NCBI RefSeq assembly: GCF_040515995.1 | Contig: NZ_CP159485.1 | Location: forward strand, 1,922,001-1,986,000 | Origin: Proteinivorax hydrogeniformans | GTDB lineage: Bacteria; Bacillota; Proteinivoracia; Proteinivoracales; Proteinivoracaceae | Reading direction: 5' to 3' | DNA length: 64,000 bases | Shown: positions 31,016-56,477 of the stretch, in pieces | Layout: the number at the start of each line of letters is the position of its first letter | Numbering within the stretch: the first letter of the stretch is position 1 | Notes under the pieces: model-generated | Told to the model about the DNA's origin: nothing | Databases searched by the model: none | The model's input: the letters and a program-made list of their open reading frames with translations, nothing else | Made by a program: the position numbers and the translations under genes

Positions 31016-31200
31016 GTCCTTATACCTGAGAGATTTTTCCCCGTTGGTGCATTGTGCTCTCCAGAGACGTGTCCCCGTTGGGTCTGTTTACCTGAAAGTT
31101 TCACCACCCTTCGCCAAGGGCAGCTTTCTTCTTCGGCGTTTGCATAAATATGCAAAACTCTCCCCGCAGGATCATTCACTCTTTATTTAGTACTATTATA
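31012..31200 (-). promoter_or_regulatory. Tandem glycine riboswitch and gcv promoter
   Basis: Two successive glycine aptamers lie on the minus strand. Aptamer 1 (about 31175-31080) contains GCGGGGAGAG, GCCGAAG and GGTGAAACTTTCAGGTAA. Aptamer 2 (about 31075-31015) contains CTCTGGAGAGC, CACCAACGGGG and AAATCTCTCAGGTA. The CAGGT(A) core repeated in both is the hallmark. A TATAAT lies at 31200-31195, starting RNA near 31188. The arrangement ahead of gcvT is the classic one. Confidence 0.95.
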
Positions 31201-31319: not shown

Positions 31320-32735
31320 TTTGGGCAGGAGGTCAAGGGCGAATTTACAATTGACAATGGACAATTGACAATTAAAACCTGGTTGTTGTTCAGTCAGGAC
31401 ATAGGTAACAAAAATGGTTCAACACATAGGTAACACTCCGATAAAATATGGGGTAATGGTAGTGAGAGGTGAGAAGTTAGAGGTTGGTAAAATGCTTGGT
31501 TGTTTTTGCCGCCCTTGTGGGCTAGATCCTTCGGCTGCGCTCAGGATGACTTTCGAGATAACCCTGCGGGAATTCGGGTCCCTTATTTTGTTATGGTGGT
31601 TTTTACTAACATCTGACCTCTTACTACTGGTTACCATTACTAAAAGCAGTTGGCCGCGAAAACGTATAAATTTGCTTATTCTGCTGGGCCAAAGGGCAGG
31701 CTTTAAATCTGCTTAATCTGCTTGGTCTGGGAATAAATGGTTTTTGTTAAACTGCAGGAAATTTTGCTAATTTGCTGTTTAAAAAGGGTTTTGCCTATAT
31801 GATTATCTATTATGAATAGGGTTGGACCAAGCATGTAGCTTGTTTCGTTATGTTTACCGTGGCCAATTAGGGTTTGAAATTAGCGCCCTTGTGGGCTAGA
31901 TCCTTCGGTGTCCCTCAGGATGACGTGCGGGATTGGTGGTTTTTACAAACATCTAACCTCATACTACTGGTTACCATTACTAAAAGCAATTGGCCGCTAA
32001 AACGTATAAATTTGCTTATTCTGCTGGGGCAAAGGGCTTGCTATAAATTTGCTTAATCTGCTTGGTCTGGGAATAAATAGTTTTTGTTAAACTGCAGGAG
32101 ATTTTGCTAATAATATACACTTTAAAAAAACAGTGTCTATATCTCATTTGCTGTTTAAAACAGGGTTTTGCCTATATATTATCTATTATGAATGGGGTTG
32201 GACCAAGCATGTAGCTTATTTCGTTATGTTTACCGTGGCCAATTAGGGTTTGAAATTAGCGCCCTTGTGGGCTAGATCCTTCGGCTGCGCTCAGGATGAC
32301 TTTCGAGATAACCCTGCAGGGATTCGGGTCCCCTATTTTGTTATGGTGGTTTTGGTTTTTACTAACATCTGACCTCATACTACTGGTTACCATTACTAAA
32401 AGCAATTGGCCGCGAAAACGTATAAATTTGCTTATTCTGCTGGGCCAAAGAGCTTGCTATAAATTTGCTTATTCTGCTTGGTCTACAAATAAACGGTTTT
32501 TGTTAAATTGCAGGAGATTTTGCTAATTTGCTGTTTAAAACAGGGTTTTGCCTATATGATTATCTATTATGAATGGGTTGGACCAAGCATGTAGCTTGTT
32601 TCGTTATGTTTACCGTGGCCAATTAGGGTTTGAAATTAGCGCCCTTGTGGGCTAGATCCTTCGGCTGCGCTCTCAGGATGACGTGCGGGATTGGTGGTTT
32701 TTCCCAACATCTTACCTCATACTACTGATTACCAT
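31320..32735. repeat. Three tandem ~340-410-bp repeat units plus IS-end motif
   Basis: Units start at about 31600, 31935 and 32350 with (T)AC(T/A)AACATCT(G/A)ACCTC. Each contains GCCGCGAAAACGTATAAATT, TGGACCAAGCATGTAGCTTG and an R palindrome (31510-31550 precedes unit 1; then 31883-31925, 32259-32300, 32639-32684). They are shorter versions of the 821-bp unit, lacking the structured element. 31391-31440 is an inverted copy of 13614-13662. 31340-31375 has TTGACAATGGACAATTGACA-like runs. The ORFs here are repeat-derived. Confidence 0.75.
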
Positions 32736-32736
32736 T

Positions 32737-32957
32737 CCAGACAGCTTAGAAGTACTCAGATTCGAGGCGCAAAAAACGCCTAGGCCCGCAGCGTATATTT
32801 AATACGTGGGGTAATGGTAATAAGAGGTGAGAAGTTAGGGGTTGGAAAAGAACTTTGATTTGTACGTTTAGGTTTTCTGACCCCACCAGACCGCTTAGAA
32901 GTGCTCATATCCTAGGCGTAAATAAAGTCCAGGCCCCACAGCGTATAATTAATACGT
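32737..32957 (-). repeat. Two truncated structured elements
   Basis: 32737-32807 and 32885-32957 each contain the outer arm (CCAGACAGCTTA, CCAGACCGCTTA), the CTAGGCG arm and the central hairpin. Both stop at AATACGTG and continue into GGGGTAATGGTAATAAGAGG. The inner-stem partner and the CTTCGTTG constant part are missing. The junction is the same in both, which argues for a defined recombination or excision point, or for duplication of one truncated copy. Confidence 0.7.
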
Positions 32958-33035
32958 GGGGTAATGGTAATAAGAGGTGAGAAGTTAGAGGTTGGAAAAG
33001 AACTTTGATTTGTACGTTTAGGTTTTCTGACCCCA

Positions 33036-33163
33036 CCAGACCGCTTAGAAGTACTCATATTCTAGGCGTAAATAAAGTCCAGGCCCCACAGCGTATAATT
33101 AATACGTGAGGAGTCTGGACTTTATTTTACAACAACGAAGATGAGTGCTTATAAGTGGTCTGG
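33036..33163 (-). repeat. Structured element, full copy
   Basis: Outer arms CCAGACCGCTTA (33036) and TAAGTGGTCTGG (33152-33163) pair with one G-T-type mismatch. The inner stem AAATAAAGTCCAG/CTGGACTTTATTT is perfect and unique to this group. Constant loops CTTCGTTGTTG and the CGTATAATTAATACG hairpin are present. Confidence 0.8.
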
Positions 33164-33199
33164 CTTCAGCAACGAAGAAGATAAGTGCTTATGACCCGC

Positions 33200-33326
33200 C
33201 CAGACAGCTTAGAAGTGCCTAGGTTCTAGGCGCCCGATACTCAGAATCCCGGAGCGTATCTTTAAATACGTGAGGACATTCTGAGTATCGGGCAACAACG
33301 AAGATAGGTGCTTATAAGCTGTCTGG
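33200..33326 (-). repeat. Structured element overlapping the cyclodeaminase-family stop codon
   Basis: Outer arms CCAGACAGCTTA and TAAGCTGTCTGG are perfectly complementary. On the minus strand CCAGACAGCTTATAA encodes the last residues Pro-Asp-Ser-Leu-stop of the upstream gene. The inner stem CCCGATACTCAGAAT/ATTCTGAGTATCGGG is 15 bp and perfect. This is the cleanest copy for defining the fold: P1 outer, P2 inner, P3 CGTAT...ATACG apical, P4 CCTAGAACCTAGG. Confidence 0.85.
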
Positions 33327-34596: not shown

Positions 34597-35661
34597 TCAT
34601 CTGTCACCTTTTAATTGTTTTTTGTTTTTATGCCTTTCCAAGGCTAGCTCGACTAATGTATCAGCTAGTTTGTCTTCTGTAAAGCCGGACGCTATTAGCA
34701 GCTTGGGGTACATACTGATGGGAGTAAAACCCGGCATGGTGTTAATTTCGTTAATCCACAGTTTATCAGTTTTCTCTTCATAGAAAAAATCAACCCGACT
34801 TATGCCTTTAAGGTCTAACGCCAAAAATGCTTCTTTTGCAAGCCTTTGTGCTTGATTAGTAACTTTTTCATCTACGTTAGCTGGGATGGTGGTAGAAGAT
34901 TTGTCAATATACTTTGCTTCGTAGTCATAGAACTCACCAGTAGGAATAATTTCGCCTGTTGTTGATGCAATCGGCTCTTCATTTCCTATAATGCTTATTT
35001 CTATTTCTTTGGCGATAAGTCCTTTTTCTACCACAATTTTATGATCGTAAAGAAGAGCAAATTTTATTGATTCTATTAGTTGATTTCTATCTTTAGCTTT
35101 GGTTATGCCTACGCTAGAGCCTAGATTGGCTGGCTTAACAAATAGAGGATACCCAAGCTTTTCGCATTCTTCTATGATAGTTTGTTGATTTTTTTTCCAT
35201 GTATGGGCTTTAAAGGTGGTATATGGAGCTACTGGAAAACCTTTGTTTTCTAAAATGTTCTTGCTAACTGCTTTATCCATGGCAACTGCCGATCCTAGCA
35301 CTTCACTGCCAACGTATGGTATGTCGAGCATGTCTAGCATCCCTTGTATTGAACCATCTTCTCCATATGGCCCATGAAGAACAGGAAAAAGGACATCAAT
35401 ATCTAAAGATATTTGTTTGCCATCTTCAATTTTTATAAGTGTCTTGTCTGTTAGGTTAAATAATAGAGGCGTGCCTCCATTTCCATTTTGTTCAAATTCC
35501 TTAGGGGTTACATCTCCAAACCATCTTCCCTGTTTATCTATAGCTACTGGAATGGGGTTATATTTCCCATTTTTTAATAGTTTAAGTACATACTTAGCTG
35601 ATTGAATAGACACTTCGTGTTCGCCGGATTGCCCACCGTAAACAACTGCAACGTTTAACAT
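34597..35661 (-). CDS. ddl: D-alanine--D-alanine ligase
   Basis: 354 residues. It makes the D-Ala-D-Ala dipeptide for peptidoglycan. N-terminal YGGQSGEHEVSIQSA, LHGPYGEDG (serine loop region), FVKPANLGSSVGI (ATP-grasp), YDYEAKYID omega loop with Tyr typical of D-Ala-D-Ala ligases rather than D-Lac ligases, and the Mg ligands in INEINTMPGFT. ATG with AAGGAGG upstream. Confidence 0.95.
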   Translation of the reverse strand: MLNVAVVYGGQSGEHEVSIQSAKYVLKLLKNGKYNPIPVAIDKQGRWFGDVTPKEFEQNGNGGTPLLFNLTDKTLIKIEDGKQISLDIDVLFPVLHGPYGEDGSIQGMLDMLDIPYVGSEVLGSAVAMDKAVSKNILENKGFPVAPYTTFKAHTWKKNQQTIIEECEKLGYPLFVKPANLGSSVGITKAKDRNQLIESIKFALLYDHKIVVEKGLIAKEIEISIIGNEEPIASTTGEIIPTGEFYDYEAKYIDKSSTTIPANVDEKVTNQAQRLAKEAFLALDLKGISRVDFFYEEKTDKLWINEINTMPGFTPISMYPKLLIASGFTEDKLADTLVELALERHKNKKQLKGDR

Positions 35662-35829
35662 TAAATAAACCTCCTTGTATAATCACTACTAATTAGTATA
35701 TGTGTTTGATGTTTTATGTAGTCAGGTGAAAATATTAAAATATACATTTATTTATTATTCTTTCTGTAGCATTGGATTTCCTGCTTTTGAGCTTTAAGTA
35801 GGTTTAAATGCTAGGAAAGCGTTTTGCTA

Positions 35830-36330
35830 ATTACAAACCCTAATTGGCCACGGTAAACATCACGAGTAGTGGTAATAAGTAATATGAGGTCAGAGGTTAG
35901 TAATACAAAACACGACCCTAAGAACTTAATTGGCCACGGTAAACATCACGAAATTAGCTACATGCTGGGTCCAAACCCATTCATATTAAGTAACCATATA
36001 AGAAAGACCCTGTTTTAAATGCAGCAGGAATGAGATATATACACTTTTCTTTTAAAGTGTATATTATTAGCAAAATCTCCTACAGATTAATCAAATTTAT
36101 AGCATGCCCTGGCCAAGCAGAATAAGTAAGTTTATACGTTTTGCGACCAATTGTTTTTAGTATTGGCAATTAGTTAACTTCATCTCAAAGCCCGCCAAAG
36201 GACCTAGCCCATAAGGGCGCTAATAACAAATCCTTAATTGGCCACGGTAAACATCACGAAATTAGCTACATGCTGGGTCCAAACCCATTCATATTAGGTA
36301 ACCATATAGGAAAGACCCTGTTTTTTCCAC
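35830..36330. repeat. Inverted partial copies of the long repeat unit
   Basis: Read on the minus strand, 35840-36330 matches parts of the 821-bp unit (CATGCTGGGTCCAAACCCATTC, TTGGCCACGGTAAACATCACG three times, an R palindrome remnant at about 36196-36220). Runs of CCACTTTCAACTTTCCACTT follow at 36329-36362. No gene is seen in 35662-36393. Confidence 0.65.
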
Positions 36331-36393
36331 TTTCAACTTTCCACTTTCAACTTTCCACTTTCCCCAACGCCCTTACTCATCAAGTTATTCAGT

Positions 36394-36440
36394 AAAAAAT
36401 GGTTCCAATCATCAAAAATCGATGATCGGAACCATTTTTT
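36394..36440. terminator. Terminator after the first pilus operon
   Basis: AAAAAATGGTTCC and GGAACCATTTTTT arms with an inner CATC/GATG pairing, and a T-run on the minus strand after the stop of the large pilin gene. It is nearly the same hairpin as at 52659-52704. Confidence 0.9.
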
Positions 36441-36452
36441 ATTTGTTTTGGG

Positions 36453-38327
36453 CTATTTTTTCGTAATCTCTAGTTTGTCACCATTATTTATTGTAATACT
36501 AGTGAGCCCATTTGTTTCAATTATTCTATCATTTACTTTTAATTTTAGCGACTCCAGACTTTCAAAATTGACAAATATAGGAGTTTTTTCCGTTGGTTCA
36601 ATAATAATTTTTGAACTATTATTTCCAAAAGTAATTTTTGTATCAAATATTACTCCTTCATTTACTTTTATCATTAATGTATTGTTATTGCTAATTTCCA
36701 AATTAGTCCTCTTTGAAAACTGTAAGCAATTTGCCTTAATTGTCGTTTCGTTACCAGTCGCTTTAGTATTCTCTCTATCCATTAAGATGTTCTTATCGTA
36801 TGCATTAGCCCCATCTCTAATATTCGAACTATTCCCCCCACCTTGATAAAATCCATGACTTGCTCCATCTTCCCAGTGCTCCGCTTGTACTTTCATATCA
36901 TAGAAATGTGCTGCATAGTTTCGATCATATTGATTATGGACCTCGGAATGGAAATTAGGAATATAGTTTTCGCTTGAAAAAGCTTTGAAACCGACATGGC
37001 TAAATTTGTGGTTACTGGTAAATCCAATGCACTCACTCTTAACTACTCCTCCGCTTACATCTTCATATAATAACGTTGCAAAAATTTCAGTACCTTCAGT
37101 AACTTTCCTAGAAACTAGCTCAAGCTGGTATGTTTTGTCCCAGTCAAATTTGCCCTGGTCTCTAAACGGCTCAAATCTCTCATCGCTTAAAAGATTAATA
37201 GATTTAATCTCACCGCTATATTGATTGTTTGTAATGCTATCAATTCTCAGTTGTTCATTTTGAACATCAAAAGTCATCATGGTGCCTTTGTTGTCATTTT
37301 CTCCTATAAAAACACCTATACCATGTTGTTCTAGGTCAGCTGAGAGGGCTCTTGGATCAAGCTGCCATTTTACTTTAGTAGTATGGGAGAAAGCGTCTTC
37401 GGAATACTGTGGTAATGGGGTTGTTAATAAAGGACCTTGGGGATCTTTATTTTCTTTCCAATCAAGATTTAGAGTAGGGTGGTTGGGGTTTTGCATGACT
37501 TCTGCATAAATAGTGTCATTTTCTCTAAAACTAATGTTTTCATTTTCAAAGTAAACATCCTCAATCAATTTTTGCCATTCTTGACTTCCTGCCCTATTAA
37601 GTATCAGCATCCGCTCAGAATTTCTAAAATGGCCAAGCCTTCCAGCAAGTGTATATGGCCTTGCTTCGAAATAATAAAACCTGTTTCCAATAAAATTAAT
37701 GTCTCCTTGAGATAAGTATTGAATTTTTAAAAAATCATTGGGCTGCTCCTCTTCTATTTCACCGAAATATTCATAGCCGCCAGGGAAAGACGGATTTGTA
37801 TACATTTTTTTTGTATTCTCTGGCTCTTCTTTTGATCTATACCAGCGAATGCGATTTTGAAAAACCACAGGGCTACTATGAATTCTATATTCCCCCCTAA
37901 TATTTTCGATATTGTCATACCATGGGAATTGATTCTCTGGATACAAGCTGACTTCTAAATCTACTTTGGGTGCCTGTGCTTCCATTATCGGTACATTAGA
38001 CACTAGCACTTTAAAATATCGATTTCCTCTAATATGCTGACTGATTTCCCTTACTCTAACATCACTTTTATATTCTCCTTGAAAAACAGTTATTTCAAGA
38101 TCATCCAGCGCAGGGTTTTCGGCTTCATTAGCAAAATCGTCCTTTATATTTAATATTTCATTTTCTATCTTCCCCTGATGTTTAAAGGTTTCTTGTGTCA
38201 ACTCTGCCCCTCTACTAGTGAGCAATATCCCTTGGCCAAATGCGCCCAGAAAAGTTATTAAGGCAATGCTGATTAACGCCATAGAGATAATAACTTCAAT
38301 TAAGGTCAAACCTTTCCGATCCAGCAT
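36453..38327 (-). CDS. Very large pilin-like protein (type IV N-terminus, 624 residues)
   Basis: The N-terminus has a prepilin motif KGLTLIEVIISMALI with Gly/Leu cleavage context and Glu at +5, so PilD should process it. The remaining ~590 residues are extracellular, many times a normal minor pilin. The middle (about 290-500) reads like a jelly-roll lectin-type fold (GVFIGENDNKGTMMTFDV, FSHVGFKAF), and the C-terminus (about 540-624) looks like a small beta repeat with ITINNGDKLEITK. These domain guesses are by eye. It is the last gene of the first pilus operon, after the VWA pilin. A tip adhesin or surface-binding role is inferred. Confidence 0.75.
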   Translation of the reverse strand: MLDRKGLTLIEVIISMALISIALITFLGAFGQGILLTSRGAELTQETFKHQGKIENEILNIKDDFANEAENPALDDLEITVFQGEYKSDVRVREISQHIRGNRYFKVLVSNVPIMEAQAPKVDLEVSLYPENQFPWYDNIENIRGEYRIHSSPVVFQNRIRWYRSKEEPENTKKMYTNPSFPGGYEYFGEIEEEQPNDFLKIQYLSQGDINFIGNRFYYFEARPYTLAGRLGHFRNSERMLILNRAGSQEWQKLIEDVYFENENISFRENDTIYAEVMQNPNHPTLNLDWKENKDPQGPLLTTPLPQYSEDAFSHTTKVKWQLDPRALSADLEQHGIGVFIGENDNKGTMMTFDVQNEQLRIDSITNNQYSGEIKSINLLSDERFEPFRDQGKFDWDKTYQLELVSRKVTEGTEIFATLLYEDVSGGVVKSECIGFTSNHKFSHVGFKAFSSENYIPNFHSEVHNQYDRNYAAHFYDMKVQAEHWEDGASHGFYQGGGNSSNIRDGANAYDKNILMDRENTKATGNETTIKANCLQFSKRTNLEISNNNTLMIKVNEGVIFDTKITFGNNSSKIIIEPTEKTPIFVNFESLESLKLKVNDRIIETNGLTSITINNGDKLEITKK

Positions 38328-38343
38328 AATTACACCCTCTTTC

Positions 38344-39924
38344 CTACTCTGTAATCCTAGGACCCTCTATTTGCCATAAGTCTTCTGAAATATAACCAGC
38401 TATATTTCTAAAAATTTCATCTAGCTTATCGCCATCTCTGGCAATAAACACCCTGTCATTATAAACAAAATCATTTTCTACATCTGAATTGTCTTCTGCC
38501 ACTTCGATACCCACTGCTTTTGCTATATCTTTTACGCTTTCTAAGTCCTCATCCAAGTTGGAAAAACCAATAACAAAGATATTTCCGTCTAGGCCCAAAT
38601 CTTCAGCTGCAGGGTCTTTTGCTTGAATTAAGTCTTCTCCGACTCGGTCTACGTACTTTGTAGCCAAAGTACACAAACCCATACCATCTCCTATATGCCA
38701 ACGACCTTGATAGTTCCACCAATTTGATGGATTAGGTACTTGCGAAGGAGATCTCTCCCAATGCCCCCCTTTCCCAGACCAATTCGAATATGTCGGGGTG
38801 TTTTTACTGATATTTCCATCATCTAGAATGTAATCACTGTATCCATAACCATGTCGACGACGCCACCAAACATCAGCGCTGGCCATGGTTGATACACCGT
38901 CTACCATAATAACCATATAGTTTTCTACTTCTGTATCGTCAGTCAATCCATAATTGCCTAGGTTGTTGTTAAAGTCCAATAGATGATAGTAGCCCCGCCT
39001 CATTCCATCACCAGTATTGGTGCCATTATCTGCACTCAGATTATCAATTAAATTATTCCAGTTTACGTTATCATCCCGCACTTTATTAAATCTTTCTGGA
39101 TCTTTGTTGTAATTTGGATGGGGTGAGTTTGCATTGGCGTGAAATGGGACCAATCTTGCATATATGTTTTCTCCTCCATTATTCTCCATTACAGAAAACA
39201 TTCTTTTCAGTGTTTCTTTTAAAATTTCAATCCTTGATTTTTCTTGTTCCCTAGGGCTATTGCCATCAAGATCATCGTTCATACTGCCCGAGGTATCTAA
39301 AACCATAGTCATTGCAGCCACTGGCCTTTCATGAATTTTGGGAGTTTCTTCTGTTCTGTAAGCTAGAGCCACCGACATATTGCTCTCGTCTCCCCAATCA
39401 ATAACATGTAGAGCATTAAGGGCTTCTACCTCTGTTGAAATCTCAAATTTTTCACGCCCATTATCAATTCCCCTTAAAAAGTATTTGATATTCTTATCCT
39501 CTTGAGACTCTGAGGTCTTTCTAAAGTTGAGCTGATATGTTAAATCACCCTTAGGCTGAGCGAGGACATTCATTTTATAAGAATCAGTTTCATTATGGTA
39601 CTCATAATGCACTAGCGAATCACCGTCTGGGCTTAGACCTATATAGTTCCAAGGCTTTGCTAAGCCGGTAATTCTTCCTGCATGATCTAACTGAGGCGCA
39701 AATTGTTCCTCAGGGACAGCAAAGGCCACAGAAGCAAAACGCAAGGTGTTGTTAATTGTCTCAGCGGTATATCGCATATCCGACTGTTCTTCAAAGATTT
39801 TCACAGAGGTAGAGTGACTTCTCACTCCCACAAAAAGCATATTGTACGCTACTGTTAATAAAACCAAAGCGATTGCTGTAGCCAGTACTACTTCCAATAG
39901 AGTTACACCTTTTTCGTTTCGCAT
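38344..39924 (-). CDS. Pilin-like protein with von Willebrand factor A domain
   Basis: 526 residues. Prepilin motif KGVTLLEVVLATAIAL at the N-terminus (Glu +5), a pilin-like region to about 190, then a VWA domain. The MIDAS is visible: DTSGSMN (DxSxS, about 211-217), a Thr in NGTNTGDGMRRG (about 305), and the Asp in MVIMVDGVST (about 345). A Trp/Gly/Tyr-rich insert (about 355-410) interrupts the domain (WWRRRHGYGYSDY, SNWSGKGGHWERS). The C-terminal helix DKLDEIFRNIAGYI is typical of VWA ends. VWA-bearing pilus tip proteins bind host or surface ligands via the metal site; the same role here is inference. Confidence 0.88.
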   Translation of the reverse strand: MRNEKGVTLLEVVLATAIALVLLTVAYNMLFVGVRSHSTSVKIFEEQSDMRYTAETINNTLRFASVAFAVPEEQFAPQLDHAGRITGLAKPWNYIGLSPDGDSLVHYEYHNETDSYKMNVLAQPKGDLTYQLNFRKTSESQEDKNIKYFLRGIDNGREKFEISTEVEALNALHVIDWGDESNMSVALAYRTEETPKIHERPVAAMTMVLDTSGSMNDDLDGNSPREQEKSRIEILKETLKRMFSVMENNGGENIYARLVPFHANANSPHPNYNKDPERFNKVRDDNVNWNNLIDNLSADNGTNTGDGMRRGYYHLLDFNNNLGNYGLTDDTEVENYMVIMVDGVSTMASADVWWRRRHGYGYSDYILDDGNISKNTPTYSNWSGKGGHWERSPSQVPNPSNWWNYQGRWHIGDGMGLCTLATKYVDRVGEDLIQAKDPAAEDLGLDGNIFVIGFSNLDEDLESVKDIAKAVGIEVAEDNSDVENDFVYNDRVFIARDGDKLDEIFRNIAGYISEDLWQIEGPRITE

Positions 39925-39946: not shown

Positions 39947-40417
39947 TTAATTTCTTACCCATCTGGTCTTAGTAAAATCGCCAGGATTGTTTTCATCATA
40001 CTTGATATGTAAAGAAAGTTTGGATGTTCCATAAGCGTCGATTAAATTTGCTTTAGATTCAATAATAACTTCTTTGGCAGCTTCGTCATAATAAACCTTG
40101 ATATCTACACTTCCTATAGGGTCGTTTGGGGGAAGCTTAAGGCCTATATGCTCAATTTCATCATTATATTTAATTAACCTATGGATTTTTTGCCCATAGG
40201 GTTCATGTTCATCCATCATAGCGGCATATGCAATTTCAATGCCCGATCTTGCCAAGTAGTAAGCTCTGAGATTGTTTTCTTGGGCTACAATTTGCTTTGT
40301 ATTTGATTGTGTCAAAGAAAAGACTGAAGCTAAAAGTATAGAAAGCACCATAATAACCATTAAAACCATAGGTAGAGAAAATCCTTTATTGTTTATGTCA
40401 TCAAAGCCCTTTATCAT
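39947..40417 (-). CDS. PilX-type minor pilin
   Basis: 156 residues from the ATG at 40417 (AAAGGATG upstream; the longer frame to 40462 lacks a better site). N-terminus NKGFSLPMVLMVIMVLSILL has the Gly-Phe cleavage site but Pro/Met instead of Glu at +5, as in PilX/GspK-like proteins. It is followed by the RAYYLARSGIEIAYA motif common to that group. Such proteins lie at the pilus tip complex. First of the three adhesin-like genes after pilA. Confidence 0.8.
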   Translation of the reverse strand: MIKGFDDINNKGFSLPMVLMVIMVLSILLASVFSLTQSNTKQIVAQENNLRAYYLARSGIEIAYAAMMDEHEPYGQKIHRLIKYNDEIEHIGLKLPPNDPIGSVDIKVYYDEAAKEVIIESKANLIDAYGTSKLSLHIKYDENNPGDFTKTRWVRN

Positions 40418-40830
40418 AAAAAACATCCTTTCTACCTTGCATAGCCAAAGAGTTAAAAGCACATTGCAGTTTTAGCAGTTTTTAATTTATTAAACCTCCA
40501 TATTGCTTTCGATATTTATTTTATAATAATTAAATAACGTTTTAGTTAACTTTAATAATGGTATTGGAGCGCTAATTCAATGATAGCATAACAATATTGC
40601 ATAGCTATACTCCCTAATCTCTTATTCTGACAACAAATTGAATGATTTCATAAAAGCTTTCAAACAACAACAGTAGATATAACTCCATCACCAATACCAA
40701 TCACTATTTAAGTAAACTGATGGCAACCAACATCGCAAAGAGCCAGCTCGCAAGCTGACTCCTGTAAATAATCTGTAGAGTAGGAATCAGGTTAGAATCC
40801 TAAACACCTTATAAACCATGCTATCCCTAC
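40418..40830 (-). other. Gap between pilA and the PilX-type gene
   Basis: The 410-bp AT-rich stretch has a hairpin at 40739-40765 (GAGTCAGCT-TGCG-AGCTGGCTC on the minus strand) about 65 nt after the pilA stop. It is a likely partial terminator that would let pilA RNA exceed that of the downstream adhesins. No start, RNA family or gene was recognised in the remainder. Confidence 0.45.
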
Positions 40831-41166
40831 TTACTTGTTGGATTCCCACCAACTATCGCCATCATCTGCATTTTTATTATAGTTCACATGATCAATGTTA
40901 TCCACTGATTGAATTAACTCTTCATCAATTAGAGCTTTGTACATAGCATCTTTTTCTTCTTTTAATTCATTACCTTTTGCCAAATAAATCGTAGTAGCGC
41001 TATTCAAAGTTCTTGCTGTTGCTTCAGCTGCTTGTTCTGTTGCGCTATCAGTAAAGCTACCTAACCTCGGTACAGCTATCGCTGCTAAAATTCCAATAAT
41101 CGCAATAACCACAATCAGTTCAATAAGCGTAAATCCTTCTTCTTTTTTTGCTAACATTTTAAACAT
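40831..41166 (-). CDS. pilA: Major type IV pilin
   Basis: 111 residues. Short basic leader MFKMLAKKEEG, then the class IVa signature GFTLIELIVVIAII with Glu at +5 and the helix continuing GILAAIAVPRL. The globular part is only ~60 residues, acidic, ending in DGDSWWESNK, with no disulfide pair: a compact Gram-positive-type pilin. Very strong ribosome site (AGGAGGAG). It has its own 170-nt leader. PilD is encoded just upstream. Confidence 0.95.
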   Translation of the reverse strand: MFKMLAKKEEGFTLIELIVVIAIIGILAAIAVPRLGSFTDSATEQAAEATARTLNSATTIYLAKGNELKEEKDAMYKALIDEELIQSVDNIDHVNYNKNADDGDSWWESNK

Positions 41167-41335: not shown

Positions 41336-42076
41336 CTATCCTCCATTTATAACTAGTCGTAAATAAATATCTATTAGGCTATCACCCCAAAAAATTGTTA
41401 TAAATGTGGCTGTTGCTAAAAATGGTCCAAAGGGCACTGCTGTTTTTCGCCCTCGTCCTAAGCTCAGTAGTGTTATGCCAACTATTCCACCTATTACAAA
41501 GGATATTAGCAGCATCAATGCCCCATTTATTATGCCTAAGTGTAGTCCTAGAGGAAACACATATTTTATATCTCCCCCTCCCATTCCACCTTTGGAGATT
41601 ATGGCAACAGCATAAAAGAAAGTAAAAAATGCTATAGCTGCAAATATATTTAGGTAGCTAGCTGTATAAATCACATACACTGTACCGGTAAGGGTGAGCC
41701 ATATGTTTAATTCATCTGGGATTATCAGATGTTTTAGATCTATAAATGCTATAACAAGGCTAACCACCGCTAAGTTAAGAAAAAATAATGCTTCTATATT
41801 TAGTCCTAATAAATTATAGGTAAGTAAAAACAGTGCTGCAGTCAAAGTCTCTATCAGTGGGTATCTTAAAGATATTTTGCTGTTACAGTTATGACATTTA
41901 CCTTTACATACCAAAAAACCTATAAGAGGGATTAAGTGTATGATTTTTATTCTTGTTTTGCAGTTAATACAGTGGGAGGAAGGAAACACAATGGATTTTT
42001 TGCGGGGTAGACGATATATCAATACGTTACAAAAACTTCCCACCATCAGGCCGAATATAATCACAATCGCCTGCAT
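41336..42076 (-). CDS. pilD: Prepilin peptidase / N-methyltransferase
   Basis: 246 residues, integral membrane. N-terminal GSFCNVLIYRLPR, zinc-binding cysteine pairs SHCINCKT and GKCHNCNS, the catalytic aspartates in FIDLKHLIIPDELN and GMGGGDIKYVF (GxGD). It removes the leader from all the prepilins in this window and N-methylates them. Last of the core assembly genes before pilA; it is the only prepilin peptidase seen, so it probably serves both pilus loci. Confidence 0.96.
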   Translation of the reverse strand: MQAIVIIFGLMVGSFCNVLIYRLPRKKSIVFPSSHCINCKTRIKIIHLIPLIGFLVCKGKCHNCNSKISLRYPLIETLTAALFLLTYNLLGLNIEALFFLNLAVVSLVIAFIDLKHLIIPDELNIWLTLTGTVYVIYTASYLNIFAAIAFFTFFYAVAIISKGGMGGGDIKYVFPLGLHLGIINGALMLLISFVIGGIVGITLLSLGRGRKTAVPFGPFLATATFITIFWGDSLIDIYLRLVINGG

Positions 42077-42078
42077 CG

Positions 42079-42621
42079 TTAGTTTTCCCCGCCAAACTTT
42101 TTACGGTAGTAGCTCTGCCCGTAATATGTGAGCGACATTTCCACCCGCCAAGCTTCTTCATGCTGCCTTACATTAAGGTTTGAAACATCGACAAAGCGTT
42201 GATTTTCGTAAAGCTCATTTAAAAACTCTTTTACCTGTTGGAACGTTCCTGTAAAAGATACTTGCACCTGTAAGGTTGCTAGCTCGTCTTGGTTTATGTT
42301 AAAGCTAAAGGAGGTGTCATCTACATTTTCCTCAAGCCATATTATAATTTGGGGCTTTTGGAGGGTGGGAGGGACGCTTGCATTTAGTTTTTCAATTGTT
42401 TCTGTGTCATATCTTTCATTCCATGTTTCGTATGTTTGCAATGATATGTCCAGTTCTTGAATTTCCTGCTGTGTGTAAGCAATTTTATCTTCTATTTCAT
42501 TTAGCCTAGCAAGTTGCGGCGCCAAAGCTAATGAGTACAAACCATATAGCGCTATCAAAAGTACTAAGATAATCGTCATAGATTTTTCTCTATTGGTCAT
42601 TTTGCTAAGATACTTATTCAT
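42079..42621 (-). CDS. pilO: Type IV pilus alignment protein PilO
   Basis: 180 residues. One TM near the N-terminus (about 15-33), a coiled coil (about 34-62), then a ferredoxin-like domain (VQVSFTGTFQQVKEFLNELYENQRF). The start ATG at 42621 overlaps the pilN stop (GGTGATGAATAAG), so translation is coupled. It pairs with PilN. The order pilM-N-O is the standard one; no pilP or pilQ is expected in a monoderm. Confidence 0.9.
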   Translation of the reverse strand: MNKYLSKMTNREKSMTIILVLLIALYGLYSLALAPQLARLNEIEDKIAYTQQEIQELDISLQTYETWNERYDTETIEKLNASVPPTLQKPQIIIWLEENVDDTSFSFNINQDELATLQVQVSFTGTFQQVKEFLNELYENQRFVDVSNLNVRQHEEAWRVEMSLTYYGQSYYRKKFGGEN

Positions 42622-43144
42622 CACCGCTCCCCCTTCCCTCTATATTAAAACCGTAGCTTTGCCCTTGGGGAGCTATGTAACTTACAGTAAATTTGTACCC
42701 CTGCCAACTATATAGGTTTTGCAGAAGCTCAGATATGTTTGCTCTAGTTGGGCTGGACCCTTGTATTGATATCCGTTGGTCGCTAACAGAAATTGTTTCA
42801 ATATCCACTTCTGAAGGAGTTAGCGACTCTAGCTTTTTAATTTCCCTAAGTTTGTTATGCCTATTTTCTTCAAGATGGGTAACTGTATCATTTAAACTGT
42901 TAATGTCCGAAAGTTTATTCATTTCTTCCTTTATTTCATTTTTTAGGGTTTGTTTGTCTGCAAGTTCTTGCTGCACGTCGGCTAGTAAGCTTTCCTTACG
43001 CTGAACGTTTATATACAAGGTTAATACCGATATCAAGATTGACGCAATAACAAGCACTGCTACAGTTGTTTTAATTATTTTTTTACTTGCTGCATAACTT
43101 TGATGTTGGAGCGAAGTGTGTAGTAAATTTATATTTTGTTTCAT
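42614..43144 (-). CDS. pilN: Type IV pilus alignment protein PilN
   Basis: 176 residues. It starts MKQNINLL, the short PilN peptide that docks into PilM, then a TM (about 23-45), a coiled coil (about 47-100) and a small alpha/beta domain (TISVSDQRISIQGSSPTRANISELL). It overlaps pilM by 4 nt and pilO by 8 nt. Confidence 0.9.
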   Translation of the reverse strand: MKQNINLLHTSLQHQSYAASKKIIKTTVAVLVIASILISVLTLYINVQRKESLLADVQQELADKQTLKNEIKEEMNKLSDINSLNDTVTHLEENRHNKLREIKKLESLTPSEVDIETISVSDQRISIQGSSPTRANISELLQNLYSWQGYKFTVSYIAPQGQSYGFNIEGRGSGDE

Positions 43145-44079
43145 TTTCCATCACCCCACATCGTTAATCCTTGTGCAAGGCTATATTTTGAGTCATCGCT
43201 AATTATGCTTTCTAATGGTATATCTAAGGACTGGGCAAAAACCTCATCTAGCCCCGGTGTTTTGCCATATCCTCCGGTAATATAAGCCAACGTAAAGCTT
43301 GTTAACTCCTGTTTTCCGCTTCTATATCTAAAATATTCTATAGACCTGTTAAGCTCTCTTTGCAAATGATAAAATACATCGGCTAGTGCCGGTGAAGTTA
43401 GAGGCACTTCTTTTCCTTCTTTAGCTGTCATTTCTTTCGCAGCAGAAGCCACCGCTCCAAAGTCTGCGCCTCCTACAGTGATACTTCTTGAAAACCTAAA
43501 TTGTTTTTCTTTGTAGATATGAATATTAGTTGAACGCTCACCTACATCGACGATTAACTGCAACCCTTCAAGATTTTCTTTATCAAAATACTTTCTTTTT
43601 AAGGCAAGGGCGGGAATATCTACCACCTTTGGCCTTAATCCTGCTATTTTAACAGCTTCATAATAGGGGTGTACAGATTTTTGTTTAAGTGCTAGCACAA
43701 GGATGTTTTGATGGTTATCATCGCTACCAAGTTGGATAAAATCCATTACGCTATCTTCAGTACCAAATGGTAAAATATTGTCCTTTTGTAGTTGGATGTA
43801 GTTGTTTACCTCACTTAATTTAAGCTTTTTAGGAACTTGGATAACTTTTGTAAAAACTCCTTGCCCATTATAAGATATTACAGCAAATTTTTTAGCTAAT
43901 CCATTTTCTGAAACTACCTGCTTTAACCTCTCCCCTAATATAGAGGGGTTAGGAGTTCCTCCCCTTCCAACTGATCCTTCCGGTGTTTCAACAGCGAATT
44001 CTTTATTTTTATAAGCAATCTTGGTCATTTTTTGACCTATGTCTATTCCTACTAACTTTTTTTGGGATAACAAGAGCAT
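43141..44079 (-). CDS. pilM: Pilus assembly ATPase-like PilM
   Basis: 312 residues, actin-like fold. GIDIGQKMTKIAY (phosphate 1), LIVDVGERSTNIHIY (phosphate 2), and AYITGGYGKTPGLDEVFA (adenosine motif). It is the cytoplasmic ring that binds the PilN N-terminus. GGAGGGG ribosome site. Confidence 0.92.
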   Translation of the reverse strand: MLLLSQKKLVGIDIGQKMTKIAYKNKEFAVETPEGSVGRGGTPNPSILGERLKQVVSENGLAKKFAVISYNGQGVFTKVIQVPKKLKLSEVNNYIQLQKDNILPFGTEDSVMDFIQLGSDDNHQNILVLALKQKSVHPYYEAVKIAGLRPKVVDIPALALKRKYFDKENLEGLQLIVDVGERSTNIHIYKEKQFRFSRSITVGGADFGAVASAAKEMTAKEGKEVPLTSPALADVFYHLQRELNRSIEYFRYRSGKQELTSFTLAYITGGYGKTPGLDEVFAQSLDIPLESIISDDSKYSLAQGLTMWGDGK

Positions 44080-44090
44080 TTTTTCCCCTC

Positions 44091-45290
44091 CTAAATAACA
44101 TGAAGTAAGTCAAACATCGGCAGAAGAACTGCCATCAAAATCGCGGCCACAATAACAGCAAGGACTACTATCATAATTGGCTCTATTAGCGATGACACCC
44201 TATCTGTTGTATGCTTTACTTCGTCTTCGTTAAACTTTGCCACTTTATCTAACATTTTATCTAAGCTTCCTGTTTCTTCACCTACTTCAATCATCTGTAT
44301 CGCCATAGTGTCTATAAAGGGGTTATTCTTAAGCTGGTCAACTAATCCTGTCCCCTCCCTGAGATGTTCGCGGGCTTCTAGTATTCTTTCTTCAAAGTCT
44401 CTGTTCTCAACGGTTTTTGATACTAAGCCTAAAGCAGTAATAATATCAACTCCGCTTTGAACCATTATTGCTAATGTTTTTGTAAATTTAGAAAGGGCAA
44501 CCTTACGAAGCAAACTACCGAATATAGGTAGGTTTATTTTTTTGCCATCGATATATTTTGCAATCTTTTCATTTCTCAAAAGGTGTTTTGCCAACATTAA
44601 TGCAGCTAACACAATGATTATAAGAGTTATAAAGTCTTGTCTTAAAAGATCGGTTATGCTTATTAAAACCACAGTAATAGTTGGCAGCTCGTCCTCTACT
44701 CCCATATCTACAAACATTTGCACAAAGTTTGGAATTACAAAAACGAGGAGAAAAATTATTGCAATACCAGAAAAAGCCATGATAAATGCCGGGTAGGTTA
44801 GGGCTGATCTTACTTTATCGTTAATTTCTTTTTCCCGTTCAAAAAACTCTGCAAGCCTTTTAAGGGTTACATCTAGCACCCCACCCATCTCACCAACTTC
44901 TATTAAGCTAATGAAAATTTGTGGAAAGGCACCTTCTCGCTCCTTTAAACTTTCGGATAAGGATTTGCCACCTTCTATATCCTTTACAACTTCCACTAAA
45001 TTTCTTTTCAGCACTTTACTTTCGGTTTGCTGCTGAAGACTTTTTAACGCCTTTGCAACCGGCACCCCGCTTTCTACCATTGCTGATAGCTGGTTGCAAA
45101 ATATTGCCATGTCCTTTAACTTTATGCGTCCTTTTTGGCCTATGCTTTTTGTTTGTTCTATTTCTTTAATTTTGGTTACAAATACTTCTTTTTCCTTTAG
45201 CAGCCAAAGTGCTCTTTGCTCATTTTCCGCTTCTATGTTGCCTTTGACTACGTTTCCTAAGGTGTCCTTGCCTACATATTTATAGTTCAT
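44091..45290 (-). CDS. pilC: Type IV pilus inner-membrane platform protein
   Basis: 399 residues. Two GspF domains with three TM regions (about 168-195, 218-238, 372-395). Signatures are FCNQLSAMVESGVPVAKALKSL in domain 1 and FTKTLAIMVQSGVDIITALGL in domain 2, each with the G-VP and FIS/EVGE motifs (SLIEVGEMGGVLD, MIEVGEETGSLDKML). Full length, in contrast to the 325-residue homologue of the second locus. Confidence 0.95.
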   Translation of the reverse strand: MNYKYVGKDTLGNVVKGNIEAENEQRALWLLKEKEVFVTKIKEIEQTKSIGQKGRIKLKDMAIFCNQLSAMVESGVPVAKALKSLQQQTESKVLKRNLVEVVKDIEGGKSLSESLKEREGAFPQIFISLIEVGEMGGVLDVTLKRLAEFFEREKEINDKVRSALTYPAFIMAFSGIAIIFLLVFVIPNFVQMFVDMGVEDELPTITVVLISITDLLRQDFITLIIIVLAALMLAKHLLRNEKIAKYIDGKKINLPIFGSLLRKVALSKFTKTLAIMVQSGVDIITALGLVSKTVENRDFEERILEAREHLREGTGLVDQLKNNPFIDTMAIQMIEVGEETGSLDKMLDKVAKFNEDEVKHTTDRVSSLIEPIMIVVLAVIVAAILMAVLLPMFDLLHVI

Positions 45291-45293
45291 TTT

Positions 45294-46298
45294 TTAGCCT
45301 CCTACGGAGAACATGTGGAAGGTTTTTTCGTCTATTTCCCCTTGGTTATATAAGTTTTCTAGGGATTTTTCGAAGGTTGTCATGGTGTTGTTTGTTTGGA
45401 TAATTGAGGGTATCTGATGGGTTTTCCCTTCTCTTATAAGTGTTTTTATAGCTGTGTTGCATTCCATAAGCTCTGCCACCGCTGTTCTTCCACCATATGT
45501 TTTGGGAACTAGCTGCTGGGTTAACACCGCTTTTAAGGTTGAGGCTAGCTGGATTCTTATCTGTCCTTGCTGATGGGGTGGAAAGACGTCTATCATTCTA
45601 TCGATGCTTTGGTGGGCCCTTTGGGTATGTAAGGTGGCTAGCACTAGGTGCCCTGTTTCCGCTGCTGTTAAGGCGGTGCTGATTGTCTCTAAGTCTCGCA
45701 TCTCTCCTACCAAAATCACGTCGGGGTCTTGCCGCATAGCGGCGGATAAACCTTCGCTAAATTTTTGAAAATGTGCTCCTTTTTCCCTTTGGTTTATAAG
45801 AGATTGTTTACATTCATGAATATATTCAATAGGGTCTTCTAAGGTAATAATATGGTTTTGAGCTGTTTTGTTAACTTCATTTACCATAGATGCTAAGGTG
45901 GTGGATTTACCGGAACCTGTAATTCCTGTAACTAGCACCAATCCTTGTTTTAGCTTGCATAGCTTCTCCATTGTATCAGGAAGATTTAATGTGCTTAGCG
46001 GTGGTATTTGGGATGGAATAATTCTTATAGCCATGCTAAAGCTATTCATTTGTCTATATATATTGACACGAAAGCGGGCTAGATTTTTTAATTGATAGGA
46101 TAGATCTTTTTGATATAAGTTGTCAATGTCTCCAGCTAGGTTTTTACACCAGGTGATAATTTGTTCTTTTTTGATGACATCGCCACTTTTTTGTAAGCTA
46201 CCATCCATCCTGTAAATTGCGGGCAATCCTTCTCTTATGTGCAGATCAGATGCTTCTTTTTCTACTGCTGTTTCTAGGAGTTTATGAAAGTCTTTCAT
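45294..46298 (-). CDS. pilT: Pilus retraction ATPase PilT
   Basis: 334 residues. Walker A TGITGSGKSTT (about 122), Asp box ITLEDPIEYIH, Walker B RQDPDVILVGEMRD, and His box TGHLVLATLHT. C-terminal AIKTLIREGKTHQIPSIIQT, the PilT signature region (AIRNLIREGK-like), points to retraction rather than assembly. Its start overlaps the pilB stop by 4 nt. Retraction implies twitching or DNA uptake ability. Confidence 0.93.
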   Translation of the reverse strand: MKDFHKLLETAVEKEASDLHIREGLPAIYRMDGSLQKSGDVIKKEQIITWCKNLAGDIDNLYQKDLSYQLKNLARFRVNIYRQMNSFSMAIRIIPSQIPPLSTLNLPDTMEKLCKLKQGLVLVTGITGSGKSTTLASMVNEVNKTAQNHIITLEDPIEYIHECKQSLINQREKGAHFQKFSEGLSAAMRQDPDVILVGEMRDLETISTALTAAETGHLVLATLHTQRAHQSIDRMIDVFPPHQQGQIRIQLASTLKAVLTQQLVPKTYGGRTAVAELMECNTAIKTLIREGKTHQIPSIIQTNNTMTTFEKSLENLYNQGEIDEKTFHMFSVGG

Positions 46299-47914
46299 TT
46301 TATTCCCTCCCCATAAGCAACTTTGAGCACTTCTTCTTTTGATGTAAGGCCCTGAGATACCTTGTCTATGCCATCTTGGTATAAAGTTATCAGTCCATTT
46401 TGCAGTGCTATTTCTTTTAGTTTAGAGGTGCTTGCATTATTTTGCAGCGCCTCTCTTAGGGAGTCATCCATCACTAGCATTTCTTGTATTGCCACTCTGC
46501 CTTTATATCCGGTTTCGTTGCACTTTTTACAGCCTATGCCTGTGCATTGTTGGCAAAGCTTTCGTGCCAAACGTTGAGCTAACACACCATTTATAGTTGA
46601 TGATATTAAAAACGGTGGCAATCCCATATCTGCCAGCCTGTTTAAGGTTGATACAGCATCGTTTGTGTGTAATGTGGATAGCACTAAATGCCCTGTCATG
46701 GCAGCTCTAAGGGCTATTTCACCAGTTTCTTTATCCCTTATCTCTCCTACCATTATTACATTGGGATCTTGCCTTAGCACAGAACGCAGCCCTCTTGCAA
46801 AATCAAGACCTATTTTGGTGTTTACGTTTACTTGATTTATGCCATCTAACCTATATTCAACAGGATCTTCGATGGTAATGATGTTTTGATCGCTGGAGTT
46901 AATCTGATTTAGCACAGAGTAGAGTGTGGTGGTTTTCCCACACCCAGTAGGCCCTGTTACTAGAAATATGCCAGTGCTGTAATTTAGCACTTTTTTAAAT
47001 TTTTCTAGGTTTGTATCGCTCATGCCTAGCTTGTTTACATCTAAAATTAGCGAGTCAGTGTCAAGTATCCTAAGAACAACTTTTTCTCCATAAATAGTTG
47101 GTAGAGTTGATACTCTAATGTCAATTTGTTTGCCTTTAATCTCTGTTTGAAATCTATTGTCTTGTGGCAGCCTTCGTTCCGCTATATCCATATTGGCCAT
47201 TATTTTAAGCCTTGAAATTATGACTGCCTGGGTGCTTTTGGCCGAAGTCATGATGTCATGAAGTACGCCGTCTATACGAAATCTAACTTGTAGGTTATCC
47301 TCCCTAGGCTCTATATGGATATCGCTTGCTCCCTCCATAACAGCTTGTTCTAAAATGGAGTTTACTGCACGAACTATAGGAGCATCATCAACCATGTCTT
47401 TTAGAGTATCTATTTCTAGCATATCATCACTTACGTTTTGTTGTTGCGATTTGAGGTTTTCCATAGCTTTGTCAACGGTTTCTTTGATTCCATAATGGTT
47501 ATCTATGGCTTGCTTTATTTCATCTGGGGCAGCTATTACTGGGTCCACCTCGTATCCTGTGCTATCGCTTATTTCATCTATGGCAACCACATCTAGTGGG
47601 TCAGCCATAGCTAAAGTCAGTCTATTATCTTGTACTTTTATCGGCATTACAGAGAAGTTTTTAGCCACAGTAGAGGTTATGATGTTAATTACTTTTTCAT
47701 CTATAGGATATTTATACAAGCTTATATGTGGTATCCCTAGTTGGAACTCCAACACCTCTATAAGCTCATTTTCTGTAAGTATATTTAATTCCACTAAAGC
47801 CGATCCTAAACGTACATCTTTTTGCTTTTGATAGGCTAACGCTTGTGAAAGCTGCTCTTGTGTTATTTTCCCCGTATCAACTAACAGGTCTCCCAACCTA
47901 AGTTTTTTGTCCAT
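46295..47914 (-). CDS. pilB: Pilus assembly ATPase PilB with N-terminal MshEN domain
   Basis: 539 residues. The N-terminal MshEN domain has two copies of the RLG-L--x-G-I----L--AL--Q pattern (RLGDLLVDTGKITQEQL, RLGSALVELNILTENEL), the c-di-GMP-binding motif of MshE. Core: Walker A TGPTGCGKTTT, Asp box TIEDPVEYRL, Walker B RQDPNVIMVGEIRD, and His box LSTLHTNDA. A tetracysteine zinc site, CQQCTGIGCKKC, lies near the C-terminus. First gene of the operon, strong GGGGGA ribosome site. Binding of c-di-GMP is inferred from the motif. Confidence 0.95.
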   Translation of the reverse strand: MDKKLRLGDLLVDTGKITQEQLSQALAYQKQKDVRLGSALVELNILTENELIEVLEFQLGIPHISLYKYPIDEKVINIITSTVAKNFSVMPIKVQDNRLTLAMADPLDVVAIDEISDSTGYEVDPVIAAPDEIKQAIDNHYGIKETVDKAMENLKSQQQNVSDDMLEIDTLKDMVDDAPIVRAVNSILEQAVMEGASDIHIEPREDNLQVRFRIDGVLHDIMTSAKSTQAVIISRLKIMANMDIAERRLPQDNRFQTEIKGKQIDIRVSTLPTIYGEKVVLRILDTDSLILDVNKLGMSDTNLEKFKKVLNYSTGIFLVTGPTGCGKTTTLYSVLNQINSSDQNIITIEDPVEYRLDGINQVNVNTKIGLDFARGLRSVLRQDPNVIMVGEIRDKETGEIALRAAMTGHLVLSTLHTNDAVSTLNRLADMGLPPFLISSTINGVLAQRLARKLCQQCTGIGCKKCNETGYKGRVAIQEMLVMDDSLREALQNNASTSKLKEIALQNGLITLYQDGIDKVSQGLTSKEEVLKVAYGEGIK

Positions 47915-54922: not shown

Positions 54923-55306
54923 CTAATATTCGGTCCAGCTAACTATTTTTCCATCATCATCTTTAACTATCGATATTGTATAAATAGATTCTTTATATTC
55001 AGAAGTCACCTTTAGCTCATTGTCGGAATACGACCAGCTGTAGGTTCCCTTTTTTAGCTTTCCTTCTGAAGAAGCTTGACCTTCTAAATTGTTCTTAGCT
55101 AAAACTTTGTCAGCTACACCAAGGGCGATATGCCTAGCCTGTAGCTTTTGTTTATAAAGCTGGTTTGACTTGGTTATTTTATGTGAAAAACTAAATCCCA
55201 AACTAAGTACCGCTACGCAGGTAAATATTACAACCAGCACTAAAACTGTTATGTTTCCCTTTGAGGAATTTTTAAGATAATGGAAAATCCCCTGTGATTG
55301 TCCCAT
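54923..55306 (-). CDS. PilX/ComG-like minor pilin candidate
   Basis: 127 residues. N-terminus KNSSKGNITVLVLVVIFTCVAVLSL: Gly followed by a hydrophobic helix, but no Glu at +5 and a polar Asn after Gly. LQARHIALGVADKVLA resembles the PilX-type post-helix motif. Its ATG at 55306 has GGAGGT nine bases upstream, both inside the preceding gene (58-nt overlap). Role as tip component is inferred from position among minor pilins. Confidence 0.6.
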   Translation of the reverse strand: MGQSQGIFHYLKNSSKGNITVLVLVVIFTCVAVLSLGFSFSHKITKSNQLYKQKLQARHIALGVADKVLAKNNLEGQASSEGKLKKGTYSWSYSDNELKVTSEYKESIYTISIVKDDDGKIVSWTEY

Positions 55307-55701
55307 TCAATATTTACCTCCAGATACCTACCACAAGTAGTTATATCATAGTTGAACTTAGTTATGTTTTCGCTTATTGGATAGGTTCCGCCAGGGGCGT
55401 TGCGAACTATGCTGGATGTGCCGCTTCTGTGATAGTATTTTATTTGATCTTCATTTGGGTAGTTAATTACTAGCCTTCCAAAATTATCGATAAATACTTC
55501 TTCCTTGTATATAGCCCTGTTAATATCCCTAGCCATTCTTTGATGAATTGTTCTAATGTTGTATTGATATTCAGCAGACTTTCTCATTTCCTCAGATAGG
55601 TTCATGGAAAAAATAATTAACTGCAGGAGAATTATCATAATAAAGGTTATTAGAGGTAAGGCTACTAGAACTTCCAACAAAGTAAAGCCCTTATTTTTCA
55701 T
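55249..55701 (-). CDS. Minor pilin with prepilin motif (GspJ/ComGF-like)
   Basis: 150 residues from the ATG at 55701 (GGAAGGGT upstream); the longer frame to 55797 only overlaps the previous gene. Motif MKNKGFTLLEVLVALPLI, Glu at +5. It continues with a helix and a beta-rich domain (RRMARDINRA-like QRMARDINRAIY, GRLVINYPNEDQIKYYH) as in ComGF/GspJ proteins. It is third of four minor pilins in the operon. Confidence 0.85.
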   Translation of the reverse strand: MKNKGFTLLEVLVALPLITFIMIILLQLIIFSMNLSEEMRKSAEYQYNIRTIHQRMARDINRAIYKEEVFIDNFGRLVINYPNEDQIKYYHRSGTSSIVRNAPGGTYPISENITKFNYDITTCGRYLEVNIEWDNHRGFSIILKIPQRET

Positions 55702-56038
55702 AATAATACCCTTCCAAACTAACAGAGTAAGTGCCAGTAAGCTGCCTCCACGAAACCGTAACATCCACAACATCGAACTGTGATGATTGCGTAACATTTA
55801 TTTCTACATCAAACATCTCATCTCCTGCACAAATAAAGGAATAATGGTGTTTTTTGCTATTTTTACTAAGTTTTTGTTCTAAAATGTTGTTTGCCACAAG
55901 CACAGCGTCAGAATAATTGCGGTTATATGCTTCAATCTGATTTATAGTAATTATAGCTGCTGTAAACGTAGCAACTACCATCGATACCAGAACAACTGAT
56001 AGCAACACATTTAACAAAATAGCTCCATTATTATTCAT
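55691..56038 (-). CDS. Minor pilin candidate without Glu+5 (GspI/PilV-like)
   Basis: 115 residues. N-terminus MNNNGAILLNVLLSVVLVSMVVATF: cleavage Gly, then Asn rather than Glu at +5. GspK-like pilins lacking Glu+5 sit at the tip, but the size and ANNILEQKL motif (about 49-57) resemble GspI/PilV. It overlaps its upstream neighbour by 8 nt and its downstream neighbour by 11 nt. Confidence 0.7.
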   Translation of the reverse strand: MNNNGAILLNVLLSVVLVSMVVATFTAAIITINQIEAYNRNYSDAVLVANNILEQKLSKNSKKHHYSFICAGDEMFDVEINVTQSSQFDVVDVTVSWRQLTGTYSVSLEGYYYEK

Positions 56039-56477
56039 TATAGTTAAGCTCCATTCTTAACCTACCACCTATTACGTCAAAGTAAATTATAGCCTGGTTA
56101 CCATATTGATCACTTATGGTTATTCTTCCCCCTCGCTCTGATAGTCCGGTATTGTAGATTAACATATAGGGCGAAAAATTATTTGTTATTCTCAAATTTT
56201 CTGGGACTTCCATAGTCCATTTCTTCTCAAGATTCTGATGAACCTCATAGGACTTATTGCACCCCGATGGAAAATAAACTGTAACTGAAGTATCGGTGCT
56301 CATAGCTTTTTGCTGAGCATACTGTAAATCTAATAGAATCTTTTGGGCATAGTTTTCTAAGTTTAGGGCAGGGTTTTGATTAGTTGTTAAAACAAAGCTC
56401 GAAACTGTTAGAATAACGGCACTAAAAACTGCTATAACTATTAAAAGTTCCAACATCGTAAATCCATGTTCATGCAT
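56031..56477 (-). CDS. GspH/FimT-like minor pilin
   Basis: 148 residues. MHEHGFTMLELLIVIAVFS with Glu +5; then DLQYAQQKAMSTDTSVTVYFP, the GspH/FimT pattern (LQ.AR..A...). One basic residue-poor leader of only four residues. It has no own ribosome site; a 12-codon leader ORF overlaps its start, so translation is probably coupled. Confidence 0.85.
   Translation of the reverse strand: MHEHGFTMLELLIVIAVFSAVILTVSSFVLTTNQNPALNLENYAQKILLDLQYAQQKAMSTDTSVTVYFPSGCNKSYEVHQNLEKKWTMEVPENLRITNNFSPYMLIYNTGLSERGGRITISDQYGNQAIIYFDVIGGRLRMELNYNE

Follow-up and report, generated by a model that had tools for sequence, protein, structure and literature searches.

Among described genes, pilB of Streptococcus sanguinis is the closest relative of the gene studied here; it was published in 2021 together with the structures 7B7P and 7BA2 (PMC8179133). 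PilB is a bimodular VWA pilin that acts as an adhesin and binds Mg or Mn. In the mutant D319A, metal binding, twitching and cell adhesion are lost and pili are still made (PMC8179133). The isolated VWA module binds fibronectin and fibrinogen, and this binding does not need the metal (PMC8179133). The second arm of PilB is a four-stranded sheet that flanks the MIDAS, and the same study lists more than 1,200 modular pilins (PMC8179133). A model of the S. sanguinis tip, an 'educated guess' in the words of its authors, puts PilA, which lacks Glu5, at the apex and above PilC and PilB (PMC10628169). PilC of this species carries a ConA-like lectin module (PMC9934059).

VWA domains are presented on pili in other systems as well. 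PilY1/PilC of Proteobacteria bring a VWA domain with a MIDAS to type IV pili, and RrgA/SpaC-type proteins are VWA adhesins on a pilus. PilY1 is a separate secreted non-pilin, whereas the protein described here starts as a prepilin, and the part of it that is matched comprises both the pilin head and the VWA domain. The RrgA/SpaC-type adhesins differ in belonging to covalent, sortase-built pili and in having no prepilin N-terminus. A sequence-only reading of this DNA had compared the gene with sortase pili and with PilY1/PilC, where VWA and pilin are separate, and had regarded the fusion as unusual. That comparison omitted the fused PilB, a full-length homologue. The pilin-VWA fusion is not new, having been published already as S. 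sanguinis PilB among the modular pilins of that study (PMC8179133), and the gene adds a further PilB-type protein.

The window is the whole stretch of DNA that was analysed, 64,000 nucleotides from Proteinivorax hydrogeniformans. Positions in the window are used throughout, and the gene and its parts are as follows.

38344..39924, minus strand: VWA modular minor pilin of the S. sanguinis PilB type, ATG start, 526 residues
39907..39924, minus strand: leader peptide MRNEKG, residues 1-6, predicted by PF07963 and TIGR02532 above their cut-offs
39337..39906, minus strand: pilin module, residues 7-196, alpha-1 helix and beta-rich head (helix 9-63 in the model, then strands)
38359..39318, minus strand: VWA module, residues 203-522, with the C-terminal family signature W..xGP, from sequence, profile and model
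39283..39297, minus strand: MIDAS motif 1, D210-T-S212-G-S214, from the sequence, invariant in 17/17
39019..39021, minus strand: MIDAS Thr302, within GTNTGDG, aligned to PilB Thr291
38899..38901, minus strand: MIDAS Asp342, within IMVDG, aligned to PilB Asp319
38656..38895, minus strand: second arm beside the MIDAS, residues 344-423, Trp/Tyr/Gly-rich and length-variable, placed by alignment position, with low model confidence

The presence of a prepilin N-terminus and an intact MIDAS in one 526-residue protein, noted from the sequence, is borne out by the open reading frame, the curated prepilin models and the match to PilB. The class III prepilin N-terminus reads MRNEKG followed by VTLLEVVL, and it exceeds the curated cut-offs of PF07963 (24.8 bits against 21.2) and TIGR02532 (17.1 bits against 16.3). 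PilD is expected to cleave after G6, so that E11 would be Glu5 of the mature protein. In the alignment, G/A6 and E11 are kept in 16/16 homologues. The Pfam VWA models stay below their cut-offs (PF13519, 21.6 against 27 bits; PF00092, 17.1 against 23.8 bits), and the VWA domain was therefore established by other means. The sequence match to PilB and the family profile make the assignment secure despite the Pfam scores.

When all PDB chains were searched with the protein sequence, the sole real match was S. sanguinis PilB (7B7P/7BA2, E 2.5e-21), in a single stretch that runs from the pilin head into the VWA domain. A profile built from eight homologues extends over the complete PilB chain (3.3e-63) and aligns D210/S212/S214, T302 and D342 to the PilB MIDAS; SpaC is a weak match of this family profile. 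As judged from these alignments, the homology to PilB extends over the entire protein and includes both modules. The two proteins have in common the class III prepilin N-terminus, a homologous pilin head, a VWA module with identical MIDAS residues, an insertion at the second-arm position, the C-terminal LW..xGP, and a type IVa pilus locus with two further minor pilins. They differ in that identity is about 26%, the arm has 80 residues here against 64 in PilB and is richer in Trp, Tyr and Gly, and the host lineage is not Streptococcus.

An AlphaFold model was built from five aligned sequences and has a mean pLDDT of 59.6. It contains a long pilin helix, a beta-rich head and a VWA-like alternating order of strands and helices. 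With this model, Foldseek returned the PilB chains at the top, at 7.3e-22 to 3.3e-20 (7B7P 1.5e-21, 7BA2 7.3e-22) and a TM of 0.62-0.63 of target, and no other target fell below 7e-4. The rmsd between the model and PilB is large, 9 Å, probably owing to the orientation of the modules and to low-confidence loops. The pLDDT is below 50 for the MIDAS loop (213-227) and the second arm (344-420), and the geometry of the metal site is for this reason not resolved in the model. Structure prediction had been proposed as a check in the sequence-only reading, and the VWA fold seen in the model, along with the rank of PilB among the matches, leaves that reading standing.

D210, S212, S214, T302 and D342 are identical in 17/17 aligned proteins, namely 16 clostridial-type homologues and PilB, and the same holds for the terminal W...GP. 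The MIDAS had been read as DTSGS, a Thr and VMVDG; DTSGS, the Thr and the Asp are present, and the last motif actually reads VIMVDG. The Trp/Tyr/Gly-rich insert pointed out at the same time is real and spans approximately residues 344-423. We equate it with the second arm of PilB by its position in the alignment, not by structure. Stretches of 40 and 80 residues occupy the arm positions of PilB, and the fold of both is modelled at low confidence. In the family alignment, the region that follows the MIDAS Asp is between 38 and 157 residues long. The remaining interest of the protein is this fixed metal site beside an arm of fourfold variable length, together with the breadth of the family.

The gene lies inside a complete type IVa pilus operon that includes its own PilD and PilT. 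Besides the VWA pilin, the operon encodes the following proteins.

46295..47914, minus strand: assembly ATPase PilB (not the S. sanguinis pilin PilB), MshE-type c-di-GMP-binding N-terminus, TIGR02538 and NF053729
45294..46298, minus strand: retraction ATPase PilT, TIGR01420 at 410 bits, above cut-off
44091..45290, minus strand: platform protein PilC/GspF, by profile match
43141..44079, minus strand: PilM, PF11104 at 3.8e-26
42614..43144, minus strand: PilN, PF05137
42079..42624, minus strand: PilO, T2SSM/PilO profiles
41336..42076, minus strand: prepilin peptidase PilD, by sequence and position, no NCBIfam match
40831..41166, minus strand: major pilin, PF07963 and GspG/ComGC profiles
39947..40462, minus strand: small minor pilin without Glu5, a K/PilA-like apex pilin, directly upstream of the VWA pilin gene, GspK profile at 9.8e-5, far under cut-off
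36453..38327, minus strand: 624-residue modular minor pilin P0002, directly downstream, positional counterpart of S. sanguinis PilC, PF07963

The PilD route of secretion that had been suggested for the protein agrees with the prepilin N-terminus scoring above its cut-offs and with the PilD encoded in the operon itself. A scan of the operon for promoters and terminators gave results at chance level. An RND efflux permease gene (48152-51151; ACR_tran, 792 bits) adjoins the operon. Pumps of the RND type are found more typically in bacteria with two membranes.

The VWA pilin gene is separated by 22 bases from the small pilin gene before it and by 16 bases from the gene of the 624-residue pilin after it. 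The listed GTG start of the small pilin is probably too early, and the true ATG is likely near 40417. This trio, made up of a small pilin without Glu5, a VWA pilin and a large pilin, recurs in L018, L019, L020, L025, L026 and L027, and the large pilin of L020 carries a Laminin_G_3 lectin domain. The tip complex of S. sanguinis likewise combines a small Glu5-less, a VWA and a large modular minor pilin (PMC9934059, PMC10628169). By position and by the missing Glu5, the trio fits this PilA/PilB/PilC scheme, with the homology of the neighbours not proven. In PilC-type lectin pilins, Ig-like and ConA-like lectin modules follow the pilin head. P0002 has no detectable sequence match to a solved PilC, and its C-terminal modules gave no sequence match in Pfam or the PDB. 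Its model is too poor to call a lectin (mean pLDDT 49), and the top Foldseek match, a legume lectin at 4.9e-3, is a weak hint of a lectin-like fold. The upstream small pilin scores 22 bits with GspK against a curated cut-off of 130, and the VWA pilin of L003 scores 25 bits with GspJ against 64.85, so that the likeness to the GspK/I/J set of minor pseudopilins is one of resemblance only.

Taken together, it is very probable that the protein is a VWA minor pilin of the type IVa pilus that serves as a metal-binding tip adhesin and is retracted by PilT. The earlier view of a pilin-borne adhesin is well supported by the homology to PilB, the intact MIDAS and the pilus operon with its own PilD. The N-terminus would insert in the membrane, PilD would cut the leader, and the protein would then polymerise as a normal pilin. 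The bulky VWA module would limit its place to the pilus tip or near it, a position modelled on S. sanguinis PilB, where its neighbours would be the upstream Glu5-less minor pilin and the large modular pilin encoded downstream. There the VWA module would hold Mg2+ or Mn2+ at the MIDAS and grip a ligand, and the variable second arm at the metal site would help to decide which ligand. Retraction by PilT would then draw the cell to the bound surface. Like the tip position, metal binding, adhesion and a part in twitching are extended to this protein by homology with S. sanguinis PilB. Given that fibronectin and fibrinogen are bound by PilB even when the metal is absent, motility may be a more important role of the MIDAS than ligand binding.

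An unlikely alternative is that the VWA pilin is mainly a priming subunit of the tip complex, with a VWA domain that binds a pilus protein or regulates extension and retraction and does not bind outside ligands. The conserved minor-pilin trio in which the gene lies resembles the I/J/K priming complex. In S. sanguinis, piliation requires all three minor pilins and loss of the MIDAS abolishes twitching (PMC8179133, PMC9934059), and the VWA domain of PilY1 is reported to be linked to surface sensing (PMC9210963, PMC8806160). However, the arm length of 38-157 residues is as expected of an outward-facing ligand site and not of a fixed internal contact, and the VWA module of PilB suffices on its own for binding to fibronectin and fibrinogen.

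A convergent origin, in which pilin and VWA domain would have come together here separately from S. sanguinis PilB, is very improbable. In its favour, the emergence of modular pilins is described as frequent (PMC8179133), and related genomes encode VWA proteins that lack a pilin part (L041-L047). A head-only profile was made from clostridial-type proteins, with PilB excluded and the generic N-terminal helix left out. This profile nevertheless finds the PilB head with 113 bits (3.4e-34); VWA-less pilins reach at most 33 bits, and the best of 200 shuffles reaches 18 bits. Since the PilB-free profile still finds the PilB head, both modules are homologous to those of PilB, which makes an independent fusion unlikely, and the LW..xGP end common to both proteins points the same way. 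Finally, the idea that the pilin-like N-terminus of an ordinary secreted VWA protein is a chance match, which could draw on the Pfam VWA match being sub-threshold by itself and on the modest N-methyl match, has next to no probability, as it is refuted by the whole-chain PilB profile, the conservation alignment and the head-only profile, and both prepilin models exceed their cut-offs in a gene that lies within a pilus operon.

The same fusion was sought in other genomes, as the sequence-only reading had proposed, and full-length VWA pilins were found in several of them. They are present in 5 of 398 sampled genomes: the source genome, a congener (85% identical), one of three other genomes of the family, and G203 and G141, which belong to the same phylum outside the source family. 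In the collection searched, only five genomes come from the order of the source genome. VWA pilins also occur in Tissierella sp. P1, in a Tissierellaceae MAG and in a MAG labelled Spirochaetales. In the order of G203, they are found in 11 of 150 genomes, plus one that is cut off by a contig end; the other matches among the 19 in this order are secreted VWA proteins whose N-terminus is not that of a prepilin. A search of genome contigs with the single protein gave no matches. The alignment-based contig search matched L018-L023, and the true VWA pilins among these are L018-L020. The 17 aligned proteins, PilB included, are 26-85% identical to the query.

Elsewhere in the family, a genome carries the same pilus operon with different, VWA-free minor pilins, including one of 380 residues with DUF7305 (L028:9474-13482). 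The sister genus has a short pilin (G002, L028:11479-11958) that was considered as a VWA-less orthologue and rejected. Its match is limited to the first 64 residues, for the most part the generic N-terminal helix, and with 11.5 bits its head stays below the best shuffle.

We propose, tentatively, that PilB-type VWA pilins may form an adhesin family that is older and more widespread in the Firmicutes, with a fixed head and MIDAS and an arm that evolves fast to change the ligand. If this is true, the ability of S. sanguinis to bind human fibronectin and fibrinogen would have arisen late, as a specialised form of a general pilus-tip grip. A family characterised in one human commensal now reaches distant Firmicutes, where the operon follows the same logic. 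The natural variants, with a constant metal site and a fourfold range of arm length, would make it possible to tell apart what the MIDAS and the arm each contribute to the choice of ligand.

Several further features were observed in the window. Long intergenic repeats occupy 31510-33300 and 35830-36330. Their units measure approximately 75-200 nucleotides and occur several times, and the two regions also share them in inverted orientation. One 331-base segment matches the source genome at 102 places and the congener at only 7; the repeats form a dispersed, apparently non-coding family that is far commoner in the source genome. Between the large pilin gene and the next gene, the congener has a gene for a methyl-accepting chemotaxis protein (dCache, HAMP, MCPsignal; L024:16587-18560), and the counterpart of this site in the window, 35661-36453, holds repeats and no such gene. 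A glycine riboswitch (RF00504, 55.1 bits) is situated at 31070-31175, upstream of apparent glycine-cleavage genes on the minus strand. Two further prepilin-like N-termini are present at 55249-56477 (approximately 1977600-1978480 in the genome), about 16 kb upstream of the VWA pilin, which suggests a second pilin-type gene cluster.
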